From: Flavobacterium sp.
Lineage (GTDB): Bacteria; Bacteroidota; Bacteroidia; Flavobacteriales; Flavobacteriaceae
Reading direction: 5' to 3'
DNA: 64,000 bases
Assembly: GCF_024710485.1 (NCBI RefSeq)
Contig: NZ_JANJUQ010000007.1
Span: 186,001 to 250,000, forward strand
A program made the translations under genes and the position numbers. Shown piece by piece: positions 556-14,252 of this stretch; position 1 is the stretch's first letter, and each line of letters begins with the position of its first letter. The notes below the pieces were generated by a model. It was not told the DNA's origin. It was given only the letters and a program-made list of their open reading frames with translations, and made no database searches.

Positions 556-2040
556 ATGTCCATTAAATCCTTCGCCGCGAAATTATTTGCACAATACATT
601 CACAACAAAGTCCAAGCTTGGGCGACTAAACCGTTGGAAACCCAGGAAAAAGTGTTCCGTGATTTAATTACACAAGCCCAACACACCCAGTTCGGGAAAG
701 ACCACGATTTTGCCAATATCAAAACGTTTCAGGATTTTGCCGCCAAAGTGCCGATTCGGGATTACGAACAACTTCGCCCTTATGTGGATCGTGTAGTCAA
801 AGGTGAAGAAAATATACTCTGGAAAGGCAAACCCATTTATTTTGCTAAAACATCCGGAACAACTTCGGGTGCGAAATACATTCCGCTCACCAAAGAGTCG
901 ATGCCTTATCATATCGAAGCCGCTCGAAATGCTATTTTGAGTTACATCCGTGAAACCGGTAAAGCCGACTTTGTGAACGGCAAAATGATTTTCCTCCAAG
1001 GCAGCCCGATTTTAGAAGAAAAAAACGGCATCAAACTCGGCCGACTCTCGGGAATTGTAGCACATTTTGTTCCGAAATACCTCCAAAAAAACCGCATGCC
1101 GAGCTGGGAAACCAACTGCATCGAAGATTGGGAAACCAAGGTCGACGCGATAGTTGAAGAAACCTTCAACGAAAACATGACCGTGATTTCCGGGATTCCG
1201 TCTTGGGTGCAAATGTATTTCGAAAAGCTGCAACAAAAAGGCAACAAACCTGTTGGTGAGATTTTTAAAAATTTCAATTTGTTCATATACGGCGGCGTGA
1301 ATTACGAACCGTACCGCGCCAAATTCGAGAATTTAATCGGTCGGAAAGTCGATGCCATAGAACTGTTTCCGGCATCCGAAGGCTTTTTCGCTTACCAAGA
1401 TTCCCAAAAAGAAAAAGGCATGTTGTTGTTGCTCAACTCGGGTATCTTTTACGAATTTGTCAAAGCCGAGGAATTTTTCACCGAAAATCCACGTCGCTAT
1501 ACTATCGGTGAAGTCGAGCTTGGCGTGAACTACGTTTTGCTGCTTTCTACCAATGCCGGACTTTGGGCGTATAACATCGGCGATACCGTTCAGTTTACGA
1601 GTTTACAACCGTATCGCATTATCGTTTCAGGTCGTATTAAACATTACATTTCGGCCTTTGGCGAACACGTGATTGGTAAAGAAGTCGAAAGTGCACTGCA
1701 GGAAGCCATGGAAGGCACCAATGTACGTGTGAACGAATTTACCGTCGCGCCGCAAATCACACCCAACCAAGGATTGCCGTATCACGAATGGTTGATTGAA
1801 TTCGAGAACGAACCCGAAAATTTAGAAGACTTTGCGCTCAAAATCGATCAAGCCATGCGCAAACAAAATACCTATTACGACGATTTAATTGATGGCAAAG
1901 TGTTGCGAACGGTGGTGATTTCCAAAGTCGCCAAAAACGGTTTCCAAGAGTACATGAAATCTATCGGTAAACTCGGCGGCCAGAACAAACTGCCGCGCTT
2001 AGCGAACGACCGCAAAATAGCCGACTTTTTTGTTAAGTAG
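556..2040 (+). CDS. GH3 auxin-responsive promoter family protein (acyl-adenylate-forming enzyme)
   Basis: A 494-residue protein that resembles the GH3 family of ANL-type adenylating enzymes. The P-loop-like nucleotide motif FAKTSGTTSGAKYIP lies near residue 95, and a conserved ELFPASEGFFAYQD stretch lies near residue 270. In plants GH3 proteins conjugate amino acids to plant hormones; bacterial members are common in Bacteroidota and their acyl substrate is unknown. No signal peptide or membrane segment is seen, so it should be cytoplasmic. It starts right after the M23 peptidase gene, so the two probably share a transcript. The family call is firm; the reaction is not known. Confidence 0.9.
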   Translation: MSIKSFAAKLFAQYIHNKVQAWATKPLETQEKVFRDLITQAQHTQFGKDHDFANIKTFQDFAAKVPIRDYEQLRPYVDRVVKGEENILWKGKPIYFAKTSGTTSGAKYIPLTKESMPYHIEAARNAILSYIRETGKADFVNGKMIFLQGSPILEEKNGIKLGRLSGIVAHFVPKYLQKNRMPSWETNCIEDWETKVDAIVEETFNENMTVISGIPSWVQMYFEKLQQKGNKPVGEIFKNFNLFIYGGVNYEPYRAKFENLIGRKVDAIELFPASEGFFAYQDSQKEKGMLLLLNSGIFYEFVKAEEFFTENPRRYTIGEVELGVNYVLLLSTNAGLWAYNIGDTVQFTSLQPYRIIVSGRIKHYISAFGEHVIGKEVESALQEAMEGTNVRVNEFTVAPQITPNQGLPYHEWLIEFENEPENLEDFALKIDQAMRKQNTYYDDLIDGKVLRTVVISKVAKNGFQEYMKSIGKLGGQNKLPRLANDRKIADFFVK

Positions 2041-2151: not shown

Positions 2152-3045
2152 ATGAAAAGAATCGGCTTACTTACCCTCTTAATTTTTAATCTGAACTTGG
2201 TTATTGGCCAAGTAACCCGACGCGAAGCCGAACGGAACGAAGTTAAAGGCGTTGTTGTAGACGAAAACAACCAACCGATTCCGTATGTGAATATTTGGGT
2301 TGAAAATGAAAATATCGGCACTACTTCAGAAGAAGACGGAACCTTCACTTTACCGGTTTCGGAAACAAAGAGAATTTGCTTCTCGGCATTGGGTTATGAG
2401 ACTAGAATTGTGTCGGCAACAAATGTAAAATCGGTTGTATTGTACCCAAAAACACTGGCATTAAATGAAGTGGTTATCGAAAAACGAAAAGGAACTCAGG
2501 AAATAGTCATTGGCGATTTTTCAGGTATAAAATTAAATTCAGGAGTCACCAACACCGGACAAGATAATGTTCATGTTTGGGCCAAATTCATCAGATACAA
2601 TGAGAAAATAAAAGCACATCCTTTTATAGAATCAATTGAATTTGTTACCAATTCAAAACTGAAGAATGCTTTGTTGAGGATTAGAATTTTCAATGTTAAT
2701 AATGAGGGTTTACCAATAGGAGATGAGGTTGAAGAAGATATTTTAGTATCCATTAAAAAAGGGGAGAAGAACAACATAGTTGACTTAGCAAAATACAACA
2801 TTAAAATTCCGGAAGAAGGAATTATGATTGGATTCGAATATTTGAAATTGGAACAAAACAAATATGAATATAATTATATCATTGAAGGGGAAAAGGAAAG
2901 TCAAAAAAGATTTAGATATGAGCCATCAATTAAAGGGTTTTACCCCGGAGACAAAACACTTATGATATTAAACCGCGATGGAAGTCCTCGTTCTGCCGGA
3001 AATGGAAATATTGAAATTGCTTTAAAAATCAAACTATCCAATTAA
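2152..3045 (+). CDS. Secreted carboxypeptidase-regulatory-like domain protein, paralogue 1 of 4
   Basis: 297 residues with an N-terminal signal peptide (hydrophobic stretch to about residue 20, ending I-G-Q). Residues about 31-105 form a carboxypeptidase-D-regulatory-like beta-sandwich (KGVVVDENNQPIPYVNIW... GTTSEEDGTFTL... FSALGYET), the same module found at the N-terminus of SusC/TonB receptors, but here no plug or barrel follows. The rest (about 125-297) is a second domain shared only with the three downstream paralogues, with a KKGxxxNxxDL motif and a P-E-x-G-x-x-I-G-F-E-x-L motif. It is the first gene of a tightly packed tandem array. No function can be assigned; a periplasmic or surface location is likely. 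Confidence 0.85.
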   Translation: MKRIGLLTLLIFNLNLVIGQVTRREAERNEVKGVVVDENNQPIPYVNIWVENENIGTTSEEDGTFTLPVSETKRICFSALGYETRIVSATNVKSVVLYPKTLALNEVVIEKRKGTQEIVIGDFSGIKLNSGVTNTGQDNVHVWAKFIRYNEKIKAHPFIESIEFVTNSKLKNALLRIRIFNVNNEGLPIGDEVEEDILVSIKKGEKNNIVDLAKYNIKIPEEGIMIGFEYLKLEQNKYEYNYIIEGEKESQKRFRYEPSIKGFYPGDKTLMILNRDGSPRSAGNGNIEIALKIKLSN

Positions 3046-3918
3046 ATGAAATCGCTCTTTTTCCTATTGTGTTTTTTCCAGCTTTCCGCTCAAGTTAAAG
3101 GTGTTGTAGTAGACGAAAACAACCAACCGATTCCTTATGTGAATATTTGGATTGAAAACGAAAATGTCGGCACTACTTCTAACGACAATGGTTTTTTTAC
3201 TATTAACGCTTCGGAAGGGAAAAGACTTGTTTTTTCGGCCGTTGGATTTCAATCCAAAATAATTTCAATCCAAAATGAAGAAAAAGTTGTTTTAAAAACA
3301 GCTGTATTTAAGTTGGATGAAATAATAATTACGAAGAGAAAGCAAGATAAAGAACTCGAAATTGGCAATGCCGAAAGGATACACCACCGACAGTTATCGG
3401 GAGACAAGCCTTGGATATACGGTAAATTATTTGAATTCGATACTCTTTATAAAAAAACGCCGTTCTTAAAAAAAATTGTCTTTTATTCTGATAGCGATAT
3501 TAAAAATGCGAAGTTAAAGATCAGAATATTCGAATTCAACGATAGCATTCCAACGAATGATTTGCTTAGCGAGGATTTAATGGTAACGGTCAAAAAAGGA
3601 ATGAGAAAAAATAGTATTGATATCTCAAAATTCAATTTAAAATTTCCCGAAAAAGGAGTCGTAATTGGTTTGGAATGGTTGATAATTGAAGAAAACAAAT
3701 TTTTCTTTGAATACAAATCATACGATTCGAAAGAAATTGTAAAATCTATTAGTTACGCACCCTGCTTGGTTGTGAATTATTCAAAAGTTGAGCACTCTTT
3801 CAGTTATTCAAAAGGGAAATGGGTTCGAAACAAAATATTCGTCAATGAGAATAGTAACGATAAACCTTGGTTTAATACTGTAATCTTGCCGGCCATAAAT
3901 TTGATACTAACGAACTGA
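3046..3918 (+). CDS. Secreted carboxypeptidase-regulatory-like domain protein, paralogue 2 of 4
   Basis: 290 residues. The signal peptide (MKSLFFLLCFFQLSAQ) is short and the regulatory-like domain begins at once with VKGVVVDENNQPIPYVN. That domain is nearly identical to paralogue 1 at the DNA level, while the C-terminal domain has diverged much more. The C-terminal domain keeps the family pattern: K-T-P-F-L near residue 140, VKKGMRKNSIDIS, and PEKGVVIGLEWL. The start codon follows the previous stop directly, and the stop overlaps the next start (TGATG), so translation is probably coupled along the array. Function unknown. Confidence 0.85.
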   Translation: MKSLFFLLCFFQLSAQVKGVVVDENNQPIPYVNIWIENENVGTTSNDNGFFTINASEGKRLVFSAVGFQSKIISIQNEEKVVLKTAVFKLDEIIITKRKQDKELEIGNAERIHHRQLSGDKPWIYGKLFEFDTLYKKTPFLKKIVFYSDSDIKNAKLKIRIFEFNDSIPTNDLLSEDLMVTVKKGMRKNSIDISKFNLKFPEKGVVIGLEWLIIEENKFFFEYKSYDSKEIVKSISYAPCLVVNYSKVEHSFSYSKGKWVRNKIFVNENSNDKPWFNTVILPAINLILTN

Positions 3919-4829
3919 TGAAAACAATCTTATTTTTTATTTTATTTTCAATATCACTTTCTGCCCAAATTACCAAAGGCGTTGTAGTAGATGAAAATAA
4001 TAAACCTATTCCGTATGTGAATATTTGGTTCGCCAATGGTAATTTAGCCGCTACCACTGAAGCCGACGGCACTTTTATTCTGGAAGTAAAAACACCGGAA
4101 CAAGACTTGCTTTTTTCTGCTTTAGGTTACGCCTCAAAAACTGTAAAAGCCAATGAAACAACTCGGGTAGTGTTGATTGCTATTGCCATTCCGCTTTCAG
4201 AAATTGTGCTTGGCAAACCCAAAGAGAGTCAGCAAAAAGAGCTGGGATATTACCAATCCGGAGGTTTCAGATACCATCAAAACTATTTTATACATGCGGT
4301 CTATTTTGATTTGGCTGAAAAGGACAGAACTTTTTATCCGTATCTTAAAGAAATTAAGTTCCGAACGGATTCAGAAACAGACAACGCCAAGATAAAAATT
4401 TACCTCGTTAATTGCCAACCCGATGGTTCTCCGGGCGAAGAAAAACTTACCGAGGAAATGATAGTAGCAGTGAAAAAAGGCAGCAGAAAAAACCTGATTG
4501 ATTTGTCGGAGCAACTAGTAAGGATTCCAGAGAACGGCTTTTTCATTGTTTTTGAAAAACTGAAGATCGAGGAAAACAAGCATTATATCACTTACAATTA
4601 CAAAGACAAAAACGGTGAAAAAAAGACACACCAAGGACTTACTTATCAGCCAGAACTATTACTCACTCCGTTTGAGGATGCCAACGCTTGGTTTAAAGAA
4701 AGACAGAATCAATGGACAAAATCATCCAAAGTGTTACTGAACAAACCCAACAGTTACGAAAACCTGCTAATGAAAAAATACCACAATAAATACTTGTTAC
4801 CGGCCGTTAATATTACCATTACGAATTAA
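3918..4829 (+). CDS. Secreted carboxypeptidase-regulatory-like domain protein, paralogue 3 of 4
   Basis: 303 residues with signal peptide MKTILFFILFSISLSAQ, then the regulatory-like beta-sandwich (TKGVVVDENNKPIPYVN) and the shared second domain (SETDNAKIKIYLVN, VKKGSRKNLIDLS, PENGFFIVFEKL). It carries an insertion near the C-terminus (around residues 255-285) that the other copies lack in this form. The ATG overlaps the stop of paralogue 2 by one base. Like its neighbours it ends in a short hydrophobic beta-strand-like segment (PAVNITITN), which suggests the C-terminal strand is structurally important. Function unknown. Confidence 0.85.
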   Translation: MKTILFFILFSISLSAQITKGVVVDENNKPIPYVNIWFANGNLAATTEADGTFILEVKTPEQDLLFSALGYASKTVKANETTRVVLIAIAIPLSEIVLGKPKESQQKELGYYQSGGFRYHQNYFIHAVYFDLAEKDRTFYPYLKEIKFRTDSETDNAKIKIYLVNCQPDGSPGEEKLTEEMIVAVKKGSRKNLIDLSEQLVRIPENGFFIVFEKLKIEENKHYITYNYKDKNGEKKTHQGLTYQPELLLTPFEDANAWFKERQNQWTKSSKVLLNKPNSYENLLMKKYHNKYLLPAVNITITN

Positions 4830-4830
4830 G

Positions 4831-5691
4831 ATGAAAACAAACTTTCTACTTTTAATTTTTCTGCCGTTTTTGGCCGTTGCTCAAATTCGAGGCGTAGTAA
4901 AAGATAGTATCTCAGGCCAACCGATTCCGTATGCCAATATTTGGGTGGAAAATGAAAATGTGGCGACTACTTCAGAAGAAGACGGGACTTTTTCAATAGC
5001 GGTGGCTAATACCAAAAACTTAATTTTTTCGGCTTTGGGTTACGAAACAAAAACACTAAAAGCTGCCCAGGTCAACCAAGTATTCCTGAATCCGAAAGCC
5101 TTTGATTTGGAGGAAGTAGTCATTTCCAACAGCATCGGAAGTAAACAAAACGTTATTGGTCTAACCGAAAACTCCGTCGCTCAAGCTTTTGATAACGGTC
5201 CGAGAATAGACGTGAAATTTTTCCCTTACCAAGCCGAATATAAGAAAACACCTTACCTCAAAAGAGTAACTGTTTACACCGATAGTAGAATAGAAGATGC
5301 GACTGTAAAACTTCATTTTTATAAAGTCGACGCCAACGGCTATCCGGGCGAAGAGTTGTTGCAAAAGCCTTTAATTGTTACAGTAAAAAACGGGACCAAA
5401 ATCAACAAAATAGACTTGAGTGATTTTGGATTGGTAATGCCTAAAAACGGACTTTTTGTAGGTTTTGAAAAACTCATGATTGAAAAAAATAAAAAGGAAA
5501 AAACCGTGATTAATCCTGTGACTAAGGAAGTCCAAATGCAAAAAACTTATTATCCGTTGATGCTGTACAATTATGTGGAAAGGGATTTTTTATTCACGTT
5601 TTCGGGTGGTAAATGGAGCAAACAAACCGATGATGTTTCGGGGAAAATCAAGGTTTACGAACCAGCCATCCATTTAACGCTGACTAATTAA
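4831..5691 (+). CDS. Secreted carboxypeptidase-regulatory-like domain protein, paralogue 4 of 4
   Basis: 286 residues: signal peptide (MKTNFLLLIFLPFLAVAQ), regulatory-like domain starting IRGVVKDSISGQPIPYAN, and the shared C-terminal domain (YKKTPYLKRVTVYTDS, VKNGTKINKIDLS, PKNGLFVGFEKL, ending HLTLTN). It is the most divergent copy in the first beta-hairpin, where KDSISGQ replaces DENNQ. It starts two bases after paralogue 3 and closes the array; a separate promoter follows for the next gene. No function is assigned. The four genes probably encode related envelope components that work together or replace each other. Confidence 0.85.
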   Translation: MKTNFLLLIFLPFLAVAQIRGVVKDSISGQPIPYANIWVENENVATTSEEDGTFSIAVANTKNLIFSALGYETKTLKAAQVNQVFLNPKAFDLEEVVISNSIGSKQNVIGLTENSVAQAFDNGPRIDVKFFPYQAEYKKTPYLKRVTVYTDSRIEDATVKLHFYKVDANGYPGEELLQKPLIVTVKNGTKINKIDLSDFGLVMPKNGLFVGFEKLMIEKNKKEKTVINPVTKEVQMQKTYYPLMLYNYVERDFLFTFSGGKWSKQTDDVSGKIKVYEPAIHLTLTN

Positions 5692-5703: not shown

Positions 5704-5711
5704 TATATTTG
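5704..5711 (+). promoter_or_regulatory. Bacteroidota-type -7 box before the phosphorylase-like gene
   Basis: TATATTTG matches the TAnnTTTG consensus of the Bacteroidota housekeeping sigma factor and lies 22 bases before the ATG at 5733. It also shows that upstream in-frame codons (TTG at 5709) are not the start. Confidence 0.65.
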
Positions 5712-5732: not shown

Positions 5733-7421
5733 ATGAAAGAAATTAAAAACATTTCGCGCTCCAGAGCGCAAGAGTCCTCGGCAGCTATCGAGCGACTGTA
5801 CATTACCATGAGACATTTATTTAACAGAGGTTTTTACAAACCAATGGGTGTTTCAGGAGACACATTAAGAGAAGCCTTATTAGCGCTTCGCCCCGAAATT
5901 TACGGCAGTATAGCCGAAGAAAAAGTGGAACTTAACGGTTTGTTGTATGTTATTGAGCGACTTCCGATAGGGATTGAAGAATGTCGTTACATCAACTTGA
6001 CTTCAGATGAAGGCTATTCCAAATCGCATTTTAAGCCGATTATTCCGCCCAAGAGAAGAAGAAATTGCTACCGCATCGACGATGAACAAATGAACGTGGA
6101 AATTACCCGCGGGCGCTCTGATATTTACGATATTTTGACACACTTGACTTTCATCTTTATCGAATCACACAAAATCAAAGATCGAGTGTTGATTGACGAT
6201 GAAGGCCGAATTTCTCGTGATTGGCAAAAATTAGAACATGCTGCTTTGCAAACCAAAAAGCTGAATCAAGTCGACAAAGAAAAAGCCATTTCCCATGCTG
6301 CTAATGTTTTAGGCAGAACTTTTGCGGAAGTTTTAGACATATACGATGCCTTTGGTACGGCCGAAAAACCGGATCGTTTTTTACACGTAATTTACTGGTT
6401 AGGAAAATTAGCCATTGAAGAAGTATTAGATAACAACAAAAGAACCATCACGTTTAGTCCGATTTTAAGAGAGCGCTTAGGCCATCACATTCACGGTGAA
6501 ATTTGGGCCAACAACATCAAAGAAGTTTTAAACCAAAATAATTTACTTGATCGACCTATTCATATTATCAGTGCCAATATGCACTCGGTTATGAATTCCA
6601 TTTTTGCTCAAGGCGTTTTAGGTGCTAAATACAAAGGCAAATCGGAATACCAAATTTATGAGGATTTGAGTGCTTCGGGCAATAAGGATTTGAGAAGTAA
6701 AGTAGAGGAATTCGCCCTGAAACAAGGCATGATTTCTTTGCCGGATACTTCGGGAACCAACATTGATGTACAACTTTTTGATACCGATAAAATCGATTGG
6801 TCTAAATCTGGATTTCCTCAAGCCAAACTAAGCAAGGAGAAGCCGGTTATCATTGTAATGGATTATGCATTTGGTGAGCAAGCTTACGAAACCATAGACG
6901 AGTTGTTGAAGCCTTACAAAAAAGGAAAAAATCAGATTTTCTTGAATGTAGAATCGGTTTCGATTATGGGTAAAGCCGGGATTTTACAAGGTGGAAAAGG
7001 CGACATCATGATTCCGAATGCGCACATCAATGAAGGTACGGCCGATAATTATCCGTTTGAGAATGAGTTGACCGCCAAAATGTTTGAAGGCAATGATATT
7101 CCTGTTTTTGCCGGGCCAATGGTTACTGTTTTAGGAACTTCTTTGCAAAACAAAGACTTATTGAAGTTTTTCCACGAATCGACATGGGGTGCTATCGGCT
7201 TAGAAATGGAAGGTGCTTATTATCAAAAAGCAATACAGTCGGCTTCCAAAATTCGTAAAAGCATCAACCCTAATGTAAAGGTTCGTTATGCATATTACGC
7301 TTCGGATAATCCTTTAGAAACCGGAAGTACTTTGGCTTCTGGCGGATTGGGAACCACCGGAGTTAAACCTACTTACCTGATTACCATCAAAATATTGGAA
7401 CAAATTTTTAACGTAAAATAA
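5733..7421 (+). CDS. Large cytoplasmic protein, DUF6909-like, with phosphorylase-like C-terminal half
   Basis: 562 residues from the ATG chosen because the -7 box at 5704-5711 excludes earlier starts. The N-terminal half is helical and charged, with no signal peptide. The C-terminal half (from about residue 360) has a nucleoside-phosphorylase flavour: PVIIVMDYAFGEQAYE, GDIMIPNAHINEGTADNYPF, and IGLEMEGAYYQKAI, whose E-M-E-G resembles the substrate-binding motif of the PNP/UDP phosphorylase superfamily. I recall this as a conserved Bacteroidota protein of unknown function (DUF6909). An AMP-nucleosidase-like role is possible but unproved. It precedes the polysaccharide locus by five bases and may be cotranscribed with its first gene. 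Confidence 0.7.
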   Translation: MKEIKNISRSRAQESSAAIERLYITMRHLFNRGFYKPMGVSGDTLREALLALRPEIYGSIAEEKVELNGLLYVIERLPIGIEECRYINLTSDEGYSKSHFKPIIPPKRRRNCYRIDDEQMNVEITRGRSDIYDILTHLTFIFIESHKIKDRVLIDDEGRISRDWQKLEHAALQTKKLNQVDKEKAISHAANVLGRTFAEVLDIYDAFGTAEKPDRFLHVIYWLGKLAIEEVLDNNKRTITFSPILRERLGHHIHGEIWANNIKEVLNQNNLLDRPIHIISANMHSVMNSIFAQGVLGAKYKGKSEYQIYEDLSASGNKDLRSKVEEFALKQGMISLPDTSGTNIDVQLFDTDKIDWSKSGFPQAKLSKEKPVIIVMDYAFGEQAYETIDELLKPYKKGKNQIFLNVESVSIMGKAGILQGGKGDIMIPNAHINEGTADNYPFENELTAKMFEGNDIPVFAGPMVTVLGTSLQNKDLLKFFHESTWGAIGLEMEGAYYQKAIQSASKIRKSINPNVKVRYAYYASDNPLETGSTLASGGLGTTGVKPTYLITIKILEQIFNVK

Positions 7422-7426
7422 TTCAC

Positions 7427-8407
7427 ATGAGTGCAACACCTCAAAACACTGATAATCAAGAGCTCGATTTATCTCAAATCTCCAGGAAGATAGGAGGTTT
7501 TTTCGAAAGTATTTCCAATAGCCTATTCCGTGGAATTTTATTTCTCAAAAGAAATATTGTTTGGGTTGGAATTCTCTTCATAGCCGGTGCCGGATTAGGT
7601 TTTTATCTTGATAAAAGCATTAAAGTTTATGACAATCAGATGATTGTTATGCCAAACTTTGGTTCTACCGATTACATGTACTCCAAGATAGAATTAATTA
7701 ATTCAAAAATCAAAGAAGGCGATACGGTTTTCCTTAAAGAAACAGTGGGATTGAAAAACCCCAAAAAACTCAAAGGAATCGAAGTTTCTCCTATTATCGA
7801 TGTTTATAAATTCGTTGAGAATAAAACCCAAAATTTTGATTTAATCCGATTGATGTCGGAAGACGGCGACATTAAAAAAGTCATCAATGAATCGGTTACC
7901 AGTAAAAATTATCCGTATCACCTGATCAAGTTTTCTACACTTGACCTAGCCTCAAATGAAGGAACCGTAAAACCCATCTTGGATTATTTGAATGATTCTA
8001 ATTATTACCAATTGATTCAGAAGGAGTATGTGAACAACGTTAAGATAAAAATGATTGAAAATGATTCAATTATTGGTCAAATCAACGGTTTTTTAAACAC
8101 TTTTAACACCACCGTTAATGGCTCACAAAAAAGCGATAAACTGGTTTATTACAACGAAAATTCCCAATTGGATGAAGTAATAAAAACAAAAGATGTTTTG
8201 GTAAATGAACAAGGAAGACACCGATTGGATTTAGTTAGTTTGGATAAAATTATCAAAGAAAACAGTGTGACTCTTAACGTTAAAAATACTAAAATGGTAA
8301 ACGGAAAAATGAAACTGTTTTTACCAGTGCTTTTTATTTCCCTTTTTGTTATAGTGAACTATTTTAGATCCTATTACAAAAGAAAGTTGGCCAAATTCAA
8401 TGCATAA
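7427..8407 (+). CDS. Wzz-like polysaccharide chain-length determinant/co-polymerase
   Basis: 326 residues with one transmembrane helix near residues 45-63 (IVWVGILFIAGAGLGFYL) and a second near residues 295-313 (LFLPVLFISLFVIVNYF), with a long extracytoplasmic segment between them. This two-helix hairpin layout is that of Wzz-type polysaccharide co-polymerases, which set O-antigen or capsule chain length. The typical proline-rich C-terminal motif is not obvious, so the match is by architecture and context. It lies four bases before rfbA and is the first gene of the sugar locus. Confidence 0.6.
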   Translation: MSATPQNTDNQELDLSQISRKIGGFFESISNSLFRGILFLKRNIVWVGILFIAGAGLGFYLDKSIKVYDNQMIVMPNFGSTDYMYSKIELINSKIKEGDTVFLKETVGLKNPKKLKGIEVSPIIDVYKFVENKTQNFDLIRLMSEDGDIKKVINESVTSKNYPYHLIKFSTLDLASNEGTVKPILDYLNDSNYYQLIQKEYVNNVKIKMIENDSIIGQINGFLNTFNTTVNGSQKSDKLVYYNENSQLDEVIKTKDVLVNEQGRHRLDLVSLDKIIKENSVTLNVKNTKMVNGKMKLFLPVLFISLFVIVNYFRSYYKRKLAKFNA

Positions 8408-8410
8408 TTT

Positions 8411-9268
8411 ATGAAGGGAATTATTTTAGCCGGTGGATCCGGAACCCGTTTGCACCCGTTGACTTTGGCTGTCAGCAAACAATTGATGCCGATTTATGAC
8501 AAGCCGATGATTTATTATCCGTTATCGACCTTGATGTGGTCCGGTATCAGAGAAATTCTTATCATCTCTACACCGCACGATTTGCCGTTGTTCCAACAAT
8601 TATTGGGCGACGGAAGCAGTTTGGGTTGCCGGTTTGAATATGCTGTACAAGAGCATCCTAACGGATTAGCCGAGGCATTTATTATAGGAAAAGAATTCAT
8701 CGGAAATGATAAAGTGGCTTTAGTTCTGGGCGACAATATTTTTTACGGTACTGGTTTATCTGATTTACTTTTAGCCAATAACAACCCCGACGGAGGCATT
8801 ATTTATGCTTATCATGTTCACGATCCAGAGCGTTATGGCGTAGTTGACTTTGATGAAAACGGCAATGTAATTTCCATTGAAGAGAAACCGCAACAACCCA
8901 AATCCAATTACGCTGTTCCGGGCATATATTTTTACGATAACGATGTGGTAGAAATAGCCTCGAACATCAAACCGAGTCACCGTGGTGAATTGGAAATCAC
9001 CGATGTTAATAAAGAATACCTTAGAAGAGGAAAATTAAAAGTCAGCATTCTTGATAGGGGAACTGCTTGGCTAGACACCGGTACTTTCAATTCTTTAATG
9101 CAAGCCGGTCAGTTTGTTCAGGTGATTGAAGAAAGACAAGGATTAAAAATAGGTGCCATTGAAGAAGCCGCATACAAAATGGGTTTCATTGATGCCGAAC
9201 AATTGAAAAAATTAGCCCAACCGTTGTTAAAAAGCGGTTACGGTACTCACTTGTTAAGTTTGATTTAA
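8411..9268 (+). CDS. rfbA: Glucose-1-phosphate thymidylyltransferase RfbA/RmlA
   Basis: 285 residues, the usual length. It converts glucose 1-phosphate and dTTP to dTDP-glucose, the first step of dTDP-L-rhamnose synthesis. The nucleotidyltransferase signature [11 protein letters not shown] with following [10 protein letters not shown] is at residues 8-31, and GDNIFYG near residue 110 supplies a metal-binding Asp. The C-terminus has the expected [10 protein letters not shown] motif. The stop overlaps the rfbC start by one base, indicating one operon. rfbB, which encodes the second pathway step, is absent from the window. Confidence 0.97.
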
Positions 9269-9819
9269 TGAATTTTATACCTACAAAGTTGGAAGGATGT
9301 TTTATTCTCGAACCTAAAATTATTTTAGATGAGCGAGGGTATTTCATGGAAAGCTTTAACGAGCAGACTTTCCAAAATGGCATAGGGAAGCACATTCATT
9401 TTGTACAAGACAACCAATCGTATTCTTCCAAAGGTGTTTTGCGTGGTCTGCATTACCAAACCGGAGCACACGCCCAAGCCAAATTGGTAAGGGTTTTACA
9501 AGGAGAAGTGTTAGATGTTGCGGTAGATATTAGACCGGATTCCCCAACGTTCGGACAGTATGAATCCGTTGTTTTATCCGGTGAGAATCAGAGGCAATTC
9601 TTTATACCACGCGGTTTTGCTCATGGTTTTTTAGTTTTGAGTAGTACGGCAACTTTCTTCTACAAATGCGACAATTTTTATAATAAGGAAAGCGAAGGAG
9701 GCCTACTTTATAACGACCCGTTAGTGGGTATAGATTGGGGATTCCCTTCCCAAGAGATGATTATCTCCGAAAAAGATAAAATTCAACCTTTGTTGCAAAA
9801 CGCCAAAAAAGTATGGTAG
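9268..9819 (+). CDS. rfbC: dTDP-4-dehydrorhamnose 3,5-epimerase RfbC/RmlC
   Basis: 183 residues, full length for this cupin-fold epimerase, which inverts C3 and C5 of dTDP-4-keto-6-deoxyglucose. Recognisable stretches are D-E-R-G-Y-F-M-E-S-F near residue 23, VLRGLHYQ with the active-site His near residue 60, and FIPRGFAHGFLVLS near residue 112. It overlaps both neighbours (one base with rfbA, seven with rfbD), so translation is likely coupled. Confidence 0.97.
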   Translation: MNFIPTKLEGCFILEPKIILDERGYFMESFNEQTFQNGIGKHIHFVQDNQSYSSKGVLRGLHYQTGAHAQAKLVRVLQGEVLDVAVDIRPDSPTFGQYESVVLSGENQRQFFIPRGFAHGFLVLSSTATFFYKCDNFYNKESEGGLLYNDPLVGIDWGFPSQEMIISEKDKIQPLLQNAKKVW

Positions 9820-10670
9820 TACTGGTTACAGGAAGTTCGGGTCAGTTAGGACAAGCTTTGCAATTTATAGCGCCCAAACATAAGGAGTTTCAGTTTGTTT
9901 TTTGTTCTTCTTCTGAATTAGACATAACCGATAGGGCCAATTGTAACGCTATTTTCGAACAATACCAACCGCAATATTGTATCAATACAGCAGCTTACAC
10001 GGCTGTTGATAAAGCGGAAACCGAGTCTGAGAAAGCCTACTCGATTAATGTTATTGGCGCCGGAAACATAGCTGAGGTTTGTAAAAAACTGAATACCGTT
10101 TTGATACACATTTCAACTGATTTTGTTTTTGACGGTACCCGAAAATTACCTTACACCGAAGAAGACCAACCCAATCCGACCGGAGTTTACGGAAAAACCA
10201 AATTGGAAGGCGAAGTAGCCGTTCAACAAACCTGGAAGAAGCATTATATTGTTAGAACCTCTTGGGTGTATTCGCCATTCGGGCATAATTTTATGAAAAC
10301 CATGTTGCGTTTGGCTTCGGAAAGAGAAACCATTTCGGTAGTAAACGACCAAATTGGCACTCCTACTAATGCTGTTGATTTGGCTGAGGCTTTGGTTCAA
10401 ATCATCAAAAACAACCAACAACAACCGGCAATTGATAACTACGGCATTTATAACTTTAGTAATGAAGGTCAGTGTTCTTGGTATGATTTTGCTGAAAAAA
10501 TATTTGAAATCAACAAGATAAGTATAAATTTACTGTCGATTCCCACTTCTAGTTTTCCCACGCCGGCTAAAAGACCAAGTTACAGCGTGTTGGATAAAAC
10601 GAAGATTAAAAAGGCTTTTAGTTTGAAAATTAACAACTGGGAAACTAGTTTGAAAGATGAGCGAAAATAG
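9813..10670 (+). CDS. rfbD: dTDP-4-dehydrorhamnose reductase RfbD/RmlD
   Basis: 285 residues. This short-chain dehydrogenase makes dTDP-L-rhamnose with NAD(P)H in the last pathway step. The dinucleotide motif GSSGQLGQAL is at residues 7-16, STDFVFDG near residue 103, and the catalytic YGKTK (Y-x-x-x-K) near residue 129. It begins inside the end of rfbC and its 3' end overlaps the next glycosyltransferase by 14 bases. The three rfb genes together imply that rhamnose, or a sugar branched from it, is in the surface polymer. Confidence 0.96.
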   Translation: MVVLVTGSSGQLGQALQFIAPKHKEFQFVFCSSSELDITDRANCNAIFEQYQPQYCINTAAYTAVDKAETESEKAYSINVIGAGNIAEVCKKLNTVLIHISTDFVFDGTRKLPYTEEDQPNPTGVYGKTKLEGEVAVQQTWKKHYIVRTSWVYSPFGHNFMKTMLRLASERETISVVNDQIGTPTNAVDLAEALVQIIKNNQQQPAIDNYGIYNFSNEGQCSWYDFAEKIFEINKISINLLSIPTSSFPTPAKRPSYSVLDKTKIKKAFSLKINNWETSLKDERK

Positions 10671-12395: not shown

Positions 12396-14252
12396 ATGAA
12401 GCTACTAAATTGGATAAAAAATAATAAGTGGTTTGTATCAATCTTATTTTTTGCTACAGCATTGAGAATCTACAATATTGATTTTCAAAGCGTTTGGTTG
12501 GATGAGATTCACACTATTAATGAAGCAAATCCTACTTTAAGTTTCCGTGAGATGTATCAATTGATGATGATTACTGAGCCACATCCGCCACTGTATTTTA
12601 TTCTGGTAAAGATATCATTCACAGTTTTTGGGTACACAACATTTGTTTTGAGATGTTTTTCGGCACTGATTGGTGTTGGAGGATTAATATCTATTTATTT
12701 TCTTGGAAAAGAATTGATGAATAAACAGGTTGGCATTGTTAGTGCCTTGCTTTTAAGTGTAAATTATTTTCATTTGTATCATTCACAAGATGGAAGAATG
12801 TATTCCATGTTGTTTTTAACCACTACTTTATCATTTTTGTACTTGGCTAAATTTATTAAAAAGCCATCTTATAAAGCGGCTGTTCTACATGGTGTTTTTG
12901 CGGGTTTAATGATTTACACTCATTTTTTTGCATTATTTGCCCTCTTTGCAGAATATTTAATTTTGTTATTTTTTATTCTAAGGCCATTTAAAACAGACTC
13001 AAAGAAATTTTTTTTGTTTTCGTTTATTTCTGGATTAATAACACTTGTTCTTTTTTTACCAAGTTTGAAATTATTTTTTGCAGCTTCAGAAAGGACATCT
13101 ATTTGGATTCCAATCCCTGGAGTAGATGTGTATACCCAAATGTTTAAAGAGTTTTTCGGTCAATCAGAAATTGTTTTGTTCTTTGTAGTTACCGTATTAT
13201 TTTATTGTTTGGTTCGATTATTTGAAAGCACTAATGAAGAAAGCTACACTATAAATCCTGATAAAAATGAGCTAAATTTTAGTTTTTTTATATTGATTAC
13301 ATGGATAATGGTTACCCTGCTAATTCCACTAGTATTGTCCTTTGTCAATTTACCCATGTTAATTACCCGTTATTTTATAAACTTACTTCCGGCAATAATT
13401 ATTTTGATTTCAATGGGAATCTTTTACATTCGAAATAGTGTTGTTAAATTAGGTATTATTAGTTTAATAATTGTTTTTTCATTAATAGATGTAGTTATCG
13501 TCAAGCGATTTTACACTAGTACCTACAAAACACAATTCAGAGAGTTGAGTTTGTTCATACAGAAGAACAAAAAGTCAGACGAAAAAGTTGTGAGCAGTTT
13601 GGCTTGGTATTTTCCTTATTTCTTTAATAAGAATGAAGAAAAAACAATTTTAATAGAAAATAATTTAGATAATTATGTAGCCGAAATGATTAGCGGTAAG
13701 GAACAAACAACATCTTTTTGGTATGCTGATGGACATCAAAGAACCTATAATCCTTCACAAGCCACCCTCGATTTTTTGAATGCAAACTTTGTGGTTGATT
13801 TGAATAGCGATTTTTATGACTGTTGGACAAAACATTATATTTTAAAGAAAGATTATAAACCTAATGTTGATATTACATCATTTTTTCCTTTAAAAACCGT
13901 AAACGGCGACAAAATGAATTTTTCTTTTGAAAGTTTTAATATCACTGCTGATAAAATTACCTTTAACGGTTGGGCTTATCTTGAAAACCAAGATGCATTA
14001 ACAACTCGGATTTATGTACTTGCGTTTGATGAGCAAAATAATTATACCATTTTAAACATCCAAAACAGCACAAGAAAAGATGTTACAACTTACTTCAAAA
14101 GTAAATTTAATATTGATAATTCAGGATTTTCAGCAGAGATTGACAAATCTGAATTCAGAAAAGGAATCTATAAGTTAGGAGTTTTACTTTTTGATGACCA
14201 AAATAAATCAAAAGGATTGGTAATTACTGATAAAAAAGTCAATATTGATTGA
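12396..14252 (+). CDS. Family 39 (ArnT/PMT-like) membrane glycosyltransferase
   Basis: 618 residues. The N-terminal two thirds contain about ten hydrophobic helices. The first extracytoplasmic loop carries the acidic W-L-D-E motif (residues 34-37) and a following EPHPPLYF stretch, both hallmarks of GT39/ArnT-type enzymes that use polyprenyl-phosphate sugars. From about residue 400 the protein is soluble, including a C-terminal beta-rich domain after residue 490 that is longer than a minimal family member. It starts two bases after the methyltransferase and ends the first operon of the locus. Confidence 0.85.
   Translation: MKLLNWIKNNKWFVSILFFATALRIYNIDFQSVWLDEIHTINEANPTLSFREMYQLMMITEPHPPLYFILVKISFTVFGYTTFVLRCFSALIGVGGLISIYFLGKELMNKQVGIVSALLLSVNYFHLYHSQDGRMYSMLFLTTTLSFLYLAKFIKKPSYKAAVLHGVFAGLMIYTHFFALFALFAEYLILLFFILRPFKTDSKKFFLFSFISGLITLVLFLPSLKLFFAASERTSIWIPIPGVDVYTQMFKEFFGQSEIVLFFVVTVLFYCLVRLFESTNEESYTINPDKNELNFSFFILITWIMVTLLIPLVLSFVNLPMLITRYFINLLPAIIILISMGIFYIRNSVVKLGIISLIIVFSLIDVVIVKRFYTSTYKTQFRELSLFIQKNKKSDEKVVSSLAWYFPYFFNKNEEKTILIENNLDNYVAEMISGKEQTTSFWYADGHQRTYNPSQATLDFLNANFVVDLNSDFYDCWTKHYILKKDYKPNVDITSFFPLKTVNGDKMNFSFESFNITADKITFNGWAYLENQDALTTRIYVLAFDEQNNYTILNIQNSTRKDVTTYFKSKFNIDNSGFSAEIDKSEFRKGIYKLGVLLFDDQNKSKGLVITDKKVNID

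Follow-up and report, generated by a model that had tools for sequence, protein, structure and literature searches.

The stretch of Flavobacterium sp. DNA considered here (the window: 64,000 nucleotides, positions 186,001 to 250,000 of contig NZ_JANJUQ010000007.1) carries near its start a tandem array of four genes, flanked by a GH3-family gene and a DUF6909-type gene (Table 1). Each array protein opens with a stretch that reads as a signal peptide, continues into a carboxypeptidase-regulatory-like domain (D1) and ends in a second domain (D2). An original prediction, made from the sequence alone, had described four adjacent paralogues of this architecture, and this was borne out: all four proteins matched PF13715 (CarbopepD_reg_2) at 49 to 62 bits, against a gathering threshold of 32.2, and paralogues 2 to 4 shared 35 to 41% identity with paralogue 1. 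The tight packing it had reported was likewise found, the successive junctions being 0 bases, a 1-base overlap and a 1-base gap; such packing suggests that the four products are made together.

Table 1. Coordinates of the array genes, their domains and the genes bordering the array (ORF, open reading frame; aa, amino acids)
Feature	Coordinates	Strand	Basis or remark
Paralogue 1, 297 aa, D2 type 7	2152..3045	+	ORF, PF13715 match, D2 clustering
Paralogue 2, 290 aa, D2 type 6	3046..3918	+	ORF, PF13715 match, D2 clustering
Paralogue 3 (P0003), 303 aa, D2 type 10	3918..4829	+	ORF, PF13715 match, D2 clustering
Paralogue 4 (P0004), 286 aa, D2 type 3, commonest type in the examined set	4831..5691	+	
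D1 of paralogue 1	2242..2478	+	PF13715 match; terminal LNEVVI at 2461-2478
D1 of paralogue 2	3094..3327	+	PF13715 match; LDEIII at 3313-3330
D1 of paralogue 3	3975..4157	+	PF13715 match stops early; LSEIVL at 4194-4211
D1 of paralogue 4	4885..5124	+	PF13715 match; LEEVVI at 5107-5124
D2 of paralogue 1	2491..3042	+	Alignment
D2 of paralogue 2	3343..3915	+	
D2 of paralogue 3	4224..4826	+	Modelled alone, pLDDT 92.7
D2 of paralogue 4	5137..5688	+	Full protein modelled, pLDDT 92.3
GH3-family gene, OlsH-like, upstream slot border	556..2040	+	391 bits, below 620 cut-off
DUF6909-type gene, downstream slot border	5733..7421	+	Start chosen by comparison with relatives

A profile built from the four copies retrieved full-length relatives in congeners with E values down to 7.5e-111, from which we conclude that the array is real and not a product of chance. 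Within the genome itself the only full-length matches were the four array genes; the 15 other matches were confined to the first 132 of 292 profile positions, mainly D1. Two D2 motifs had been proposed. The second, P(E/K)xGxx(I/V)(G/V)(F/L)ExL, was present in all four paralogues, while the first, KKGxxxNx(I/V)D(L/I), was strictly kept in three, the fourth reading KNGTKINKIDL. D2 spans approximately 180 residues in the model of P0004, rather than the 160 first estimated.

Searches of the four proteins against PADLOC returned no row at E<=0.01, and P0004 matched neither plasmid nor phage records (E<=1e-10 and 1e-5). A TAnnTTTG promoter motif lies at 5704-5711, ahead of the DUF6909-type gene, though such sites are no commoner in the window than in shuffles (81 against 90 expected); a two-part promoter pattern occurred 5 times against 4.7 expected, and a sigma-70 scan was also run. 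The array stops just upstream of the DUF6909-type gene, for which the ORF tool gave a TTG start at 5709 and the ATG at 5733 agrees with relatives.

Predicted fold of the second domain

Structural models were generated with AlphaFold2 for the whole of P0004 (pTM 0.85) and for the D2 of the divergent copy P0003 alone (pTM 0.88), and compared with known structures. The lectin-like domain of Cwp84 headed the D2 matches of the P0004 model (VIA-align Z 14.1, 3.5 A, 154 residues aligned), the next D2 row scoring 12.1, in an alignment restricted to the first 1000 chains from Foldseek, such that further families may also match. The same domain came first for the P0003 D2 model (Z 14.7, 2.7 A, 152 of 201 residues aligned), where Foldseek also placed 4ci7 (Cwp84) at the head of its list (E 1.4e-3, probability 1.00). 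The predicted fold of D2 is thus a lectin-like jelly roll.

At the level of sequence, the failure to link D2 to a family was borne out. Over D2, neither the four proteins nor 84 homologues gave a consistent match in Pfam or NCBIfam, the rows among the families listed (25 of 31 and 25 of 33 in the longest lists) being scattered and weak, and a D2 profile searched against the sequences of PDB chains returned no row at E<=10. The weak Pfam rows falling on D2 were regarded as noise, the best of them being DUF7638 (3.3e-4, in 3 of the 84 homologues) and, in the window proteins, PHD_like at 0.08. On these searches D2 may be assigned a fold and not a family. The search of the domain that had been proposed yielded a jelly roll in models of two paralogues and no consistent sequence family. 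The fold of D2 is a known one, of the lectin-like or carbohydrate-binding module (CBM) type, and any novelty would lie at the level of the family, which is unnamed and for which we found no description in the literature. The parts of the array proteins are known ones.

The D2 models share with the Cwp84 domain (PF18560, Lectin_like) a fold and a comparable size. In Cwp84, however, the domain follows a cysteine protease, and the likeness predicted for D2 is one of fold. The Cwp84 report (PMC4089489) describes that domain as a putative carbohydrate binder that holds a Ca ion. CBM6, CBM35 and CBM36 share the jelly-roll core (Z 6.4-7.2); D2 exceeds them in size, and the Pfam rows listed for it include no match to them. 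PF18560 itself was rare in our phylum sample (2 of 198 genomes); both matches lie on Bacteroidota proteins that read as papain-like peptidases (L192:464-2074 and L193:526-3453).

Relatives and D2 types

Matches to the array proteins were found in 77 of 150 genomes of the genus (E<=1e-20), some of these reflecting distant relatives, or long receptors matched through D1 alone. A D2-only profile matched 85 of 299 genomes of the family (E<=1e-4), including a few weak matches in frames of 645-1014 aa. In the phylum sample, 28 of 395 genomes matched; 11 of these, several with weak matches, come from families other than that of the window. Many distant members are open frames of approximately 275-345 aa with a diverged D2, and D1 was present in all 10 tested, in one below threshold. 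The 79 loci examined by name come from a search seeded on two D1 patterns, of whose 199 relatives the best 80 were kept, and they may favour a conserved D1; D2 was present in all 79. They include Polaribacter, Cellulophaga, Maribacter, Tamlana, Rufibacter and a metagenome-assembled genome (MAG) labelled Roseivirga. The last two belong to Cytophagia, and together with the matches outside the family they set aside the restriction to Flavobacteriia that had been raised as support for novelty.

Three loci (L137, L145, L180) appeared by eye to encode a signal peptide and D2 without D1. The family also turned up in MAG records that bear the names Rhizobium, Bifidobacterium and Chitinophaga (L064, L119, L111, L052, L112); in L111, L052, L112 and L119 the gene order is that usual in Flavobacterium, and these labels are probably wrong or the result of contamination.

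Clustering by D2 was performed on 110 proteins (106 from 78 loci and the 4 of the window) with frames of at least approximately 780 bases, shorter frames such as the second gene of L057, L095 and the L127 fragments being dropped from the counts. Thirteen groups resulted, and the window's types 7, 6, 10 and 3 have 3, 20, 7 and 48 members, respectively. As lower bounds, given short contigs and the length limit, 53 of the 78 loci hold one array gene, 22 hold two and 3 hold three; the window's array of four is the largest in this set. Copy number, which the original prediction had proposed to check between strains, does vary, as does the presence of the array within the genus. The best-matching locus (L049, Flavobacterium sp. 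J49) has the order 7-6-3 and lacks type 10. D2 identity between window proteins and their L049 orthologues is 72-79%, against 25-35% among the window paralogues.

Identities of the two domains were compared within and between types 3, 6 and 10 (the three largest groups with a match, 75 of the 110 proteins), and again in a second set comprising 44 of 46 proteins (4 from the window and 42 from L020-L048, obtained by whole-profile search), with small groups dropped. In the 75-protein set, D1 identity was 0.53 between types against 0.57-0.61 within, and D2 identity 0.27-0.35 against 0.54-0.60. Over both sets the ranges were 0.52-0.53 against 0.56-0.62 for D1 and 0.27-0.35 against 0.54-0.64 for D2, the low between-type D2 values arising partly by construction since the types were cut on D2. 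The informative point is therefore that D1 hardly separates the types. Universally conserved positions number 18 of 183 in D2 and 20 of 81 in D1. Because D1 remains alike between types while D2 diverges, the comparison suggests one dock (D1) with four ligand heads (D2).

The D1 regions of neighbouring genes were also compared as DNA. Identity was 0.78 in L100 (<=0.66 elsewhere), 0.72 in L071 (<=0.71), 0.67 for window paralogues 1 and 2 (<=0.64) and 0.77 for genes 2 and 3 of L055 (mean 0.64, maximum 0.79). In two loci (L055:8845-10564 and L100:7998-9697) D1 DNA is 77-78% identical (95% in L055 for the part encoding the first 40 residues), against 48-52% for D2 DNA, a pattern resembling gene conversion. 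General conversion of D1 was considered and not retained: 20 of 36 pairs were positive (Wilcoxon p 0.05), the excess of D1 over D2 gave p 0.14, and we make no general claim.

D1, the segment that follows it and cellular location

PF13715 was matched by all 84 homologues (E<=0.1). In the P0004 model, D1 aligned with the NTE, the N-terminal domain of SusC-type receptors (9hfj, Z 13.4, and 6ytc, Z 11.1, by VIA-align), and with chain 9n2d_E of the F. johnsoniae BAM complex (Z 9.1), which we infer to be BamP. SusC-type TonB-dependent receptors consist of an NTE, a TonB box, a plug and a barrel. The array proteins share the fold and family of the NTE, followed by a TonB-box-like segment, yet have no plug or barrel and carry a predicted jelly roll instead; against the SusC/RagA model TIGR04056 they matched positions 2-106 of 981 only, at 42-70 bits against a cut-off of 368.

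The likeness to BamP of Flavobacterium johnsoniae, which extends to a D1-type N-terminal domain and the occurrence of several homologues per genome, raises the possibility that the array encodes accessory subunits that attach to BamA/BamD and adjust the assembly of outer-membrane proteins. The NCBIfam BamP model (NF053692) matches 64 of the 84 homologues; in the window proteins, however, the match is limited to the first 120 residues, the best score is 39.5 bits against a cut-off of 230 and paralogue 3 has no match. Where BamP has a three-helix C-terminal domain and a barrel-threading linker, the P0004 model shows a jelly roll preceded by a short linker. Furthermore, separate BamP-like genes exist at C39 and C2 (154.7 and 82.3 bits, both under the cut-off). 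We consider a BamP-like role highly improbable.

After D1, residues 93-98 of P0004 read L-E-E-V-V-I. Across the 110 proteins the leucine is kept in 109, the acidic position is glutamate in 98 and aspartate in 8 (106 of 110), and valine or isoleucine occupies residue 96 in 108. The segment is coil in the P0004 model, within a block of mean pLDDT 73. Its location relative to D1 is that of the TonB box of Bt1763 (VDEVVV), which, according to PMC7782687, comes after the NTE and on deletion or mutation leaves the transporter non-functional on levan. The same text describes the role of the NTE of SusC-type receptors as unknown in 2021, and reports no detectable growth in 24 h following deletion of the Bt1763 NTE.

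The segment might accordingly serve as a working TonB box, with the soluble array proteins loading or competing for TonB and coupling it to a ligand bound by D2. Its position, its conservation, its predicted coil and the 8 TonB_C matches in the genome are consistent with this. An L-x-E-V-V-I-like ending is, however, also present in further D1 proteins encoded here, among them the products of frames of 836, 854 and 287 aa that may not depend on TonB, and may be the ordinary end of D1; we judge TonB engagement to be unlikely. A more specific version, which we offer as speculation with the odds clearly against it, is a barrel-less TonB-box family: soluble periplasmic proteins that would keep the NTE and TonB box, with a lectin-like head replacing plug and barrel, such that TonB would be tethered to, or pull on, an envelope glycan and arrays would supply several heads per dock.

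The leaders bear on where the proteins reside. A small residue followed by glutamine precedes D1 in 108 of the 110 homologues, and Gln 18 is conserved at 90% or above in an 84-row alignment. Such a glutamine at the mature terminus is what the Q-rule predicts for substrates of signal peptidase I (PMC5837995). Since the mature termini fit this rule, the array products are probably periplasmic. Four of the 110 leaders hold a cysteine caught by a loose lipobox pattern, which counts against this placement; the remaining 106 have no clear lipobox.

Lectin-like jelly rolls and folds of the phage-fibre type both match D2, as would be expected of surface or secreted adhesins exported via the type IX secretion system (T9SS). 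Sorting-domain models for this system form part of NCBIfam. The 84 homologues matched 17 NCBIfam families (E<=0.1), with no T9SS C-terminal sorting domain among them, the last strand of the predicted jelly roll forms the C-terminus in the P0004 model, and 106 of 110 leaders show a Q-rule start with no clear lipobox. An adhesin role is thus distinctly unlikely, and the earlier description of the products as secreted became doubtful, the leaders and the absence of a T9SS domain indicating the periplasm.

Chromosomal slot and proposed role

The GH3 gene lies within two genes upstream of the array in 58 of the 79 loci and the DUF6909 gene within two genes downstream in 57; neither was found in 15, and 8 loci have too little upstream sequence for the GH3 test. 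Of 73 congeners without an array match, 12 were tested. All 12 have the GH3 gene (74-85% identity) and the DUF6909 gene (77-84%) with no array gene between them, and in 11 the aligned ends are separated by 17-100 bases. In the twelfth (G006) the interval is 836 bases and contains an ORF (L206:2308-2931, minus strand) that matches REP-associated tyrosine transposases below threshold. The array is thus an optional gene set in a fixed junction in this genus. The tested congeners also have a second GH3 match elsewhere in the genome (35-38% identity).

Below its cut-off (Table 1), the lyso-ornithine lipid synthetase model OlsH matches the GH3 neighbour. An M23 peptidase gene occurs in 54 of the 79 loci (nearest model MepM, below cut-off), a membrane gene read as Wzz-like, with no Pfam match, in 50, and genes read as rfbA-like in 41. 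Directly downstream in the window (7427-10670) lie a chain-length-regulator-like membrane gene and the dTDP-rhamnose type genes rfbA, rfbC and rfbD, all named by reading; the array thus borders a surface-polysaccharide region. The surroundings are of the envelope type; the undescribed envelope system that had been proposed did not itself emerge.

Patchy presence at a fixed slot, the transposase-like ORF in one such slot and internal stops in a few congener copies would also suit accessory genes that are selfish or neutral, spread through recombination and have no role in the envelope. Relatives within cassette-like arrays point the same way. The types are, however, kept across species (mean identity 54-64% within types), the motifs are retained and the frames are mostly unbroken, and we regard this explanation as improbable. 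The cassette-like relatives are of D2 type 13, from Polaribacter and Tamlana (L066:5126-9044; L073:1-6093; L080:9976-10001 and 13865-13890). Their surroundings are unrelated, mostly same-strand genes spaced by repeats of approximately 120 bases with possibly complementary ends (GGCAAC / GTTGCC, L066:7855-7992), and these loci are possibly of the integron type. When the L066 and L073 repeats were assessed as attC sites, folding was unusual in one of three (z -0.68, -0.09 and -4.41). An Rfam search returned only tRNAs; the strict repeat pattern occurred in 3 of 208 loci and in 1 stretch of the viral contigs.

Our preferred reading, held tentatively, is that the array encodes non-enzymatic periplasmic binding proteins that dock to an outer-membrane or TonB partner, with a common dock and type-specific heads. 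Each gene would yield a soluble two-domain periplasmic protein. D1, a predicted transthyretin-like module like that at the N-terminus of SusC-type receptors and of BamP, would most likely dock the protein on a common partner, either TonB or one located on the periplasmic side of the outer membrane. D2, as a putatively non-catalytic lectin-like jelly roll, would most likely bind a glycan-type ligand of the envelope. The array would then comprise four old variants with the same dock and different heads, optional at one chromosomal slot. A Riemerella transformation gene, RA0C_RS04915, also bears the annotation of a carboxypeptidase regulatory-like domain; PMC8459023 places it beside a DUF5689 gene, with a predicted outer-membrane location. 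By its description alone, it is probably another kind of protein.

Several observations weigh against the binding-protein reading. In the comparison of the P0003 D2 model, Cwp84 is tied with a baseplate chain of phage phi812 (Z 14.0). D2 also matches phage fibres and capsid chains of viruses, as well as esterase and PHR domains (Z 8.3-12.1, the last two at 8.3-9.5). A shared fold does not establish function. For the whole P0004 model, Foldseek ranked Cwp84 31st, after teneurin, virus capsid and NTE chains, the teneurin and capsid chains having low TM-scores. When D2 was aligned by hhalign with just two PF18560 members from Bacteroidota, a number too small for a verdict on kinship, the probability was 0.6 and E 0.1, and PF18560 is absent from the Pfam rows of the 84 D2s (25 of 33 families listed). 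In Cwp84 itself, according to its authors (PMC4089489), the usual sugar-binding region is apparently absent. At the 85% level, positions kept within a type and differing between types number only 6 in D2 and 0 in D1, and the loci show no evident partner gene travelling with the array.

The libraries searched contain no family entry for D2, whose relatives extend across several Bacteroidota lineages. A natural family that possesses an NTE and the TonB-box position but no barrel would offer a clean way to test what the NTE binds.

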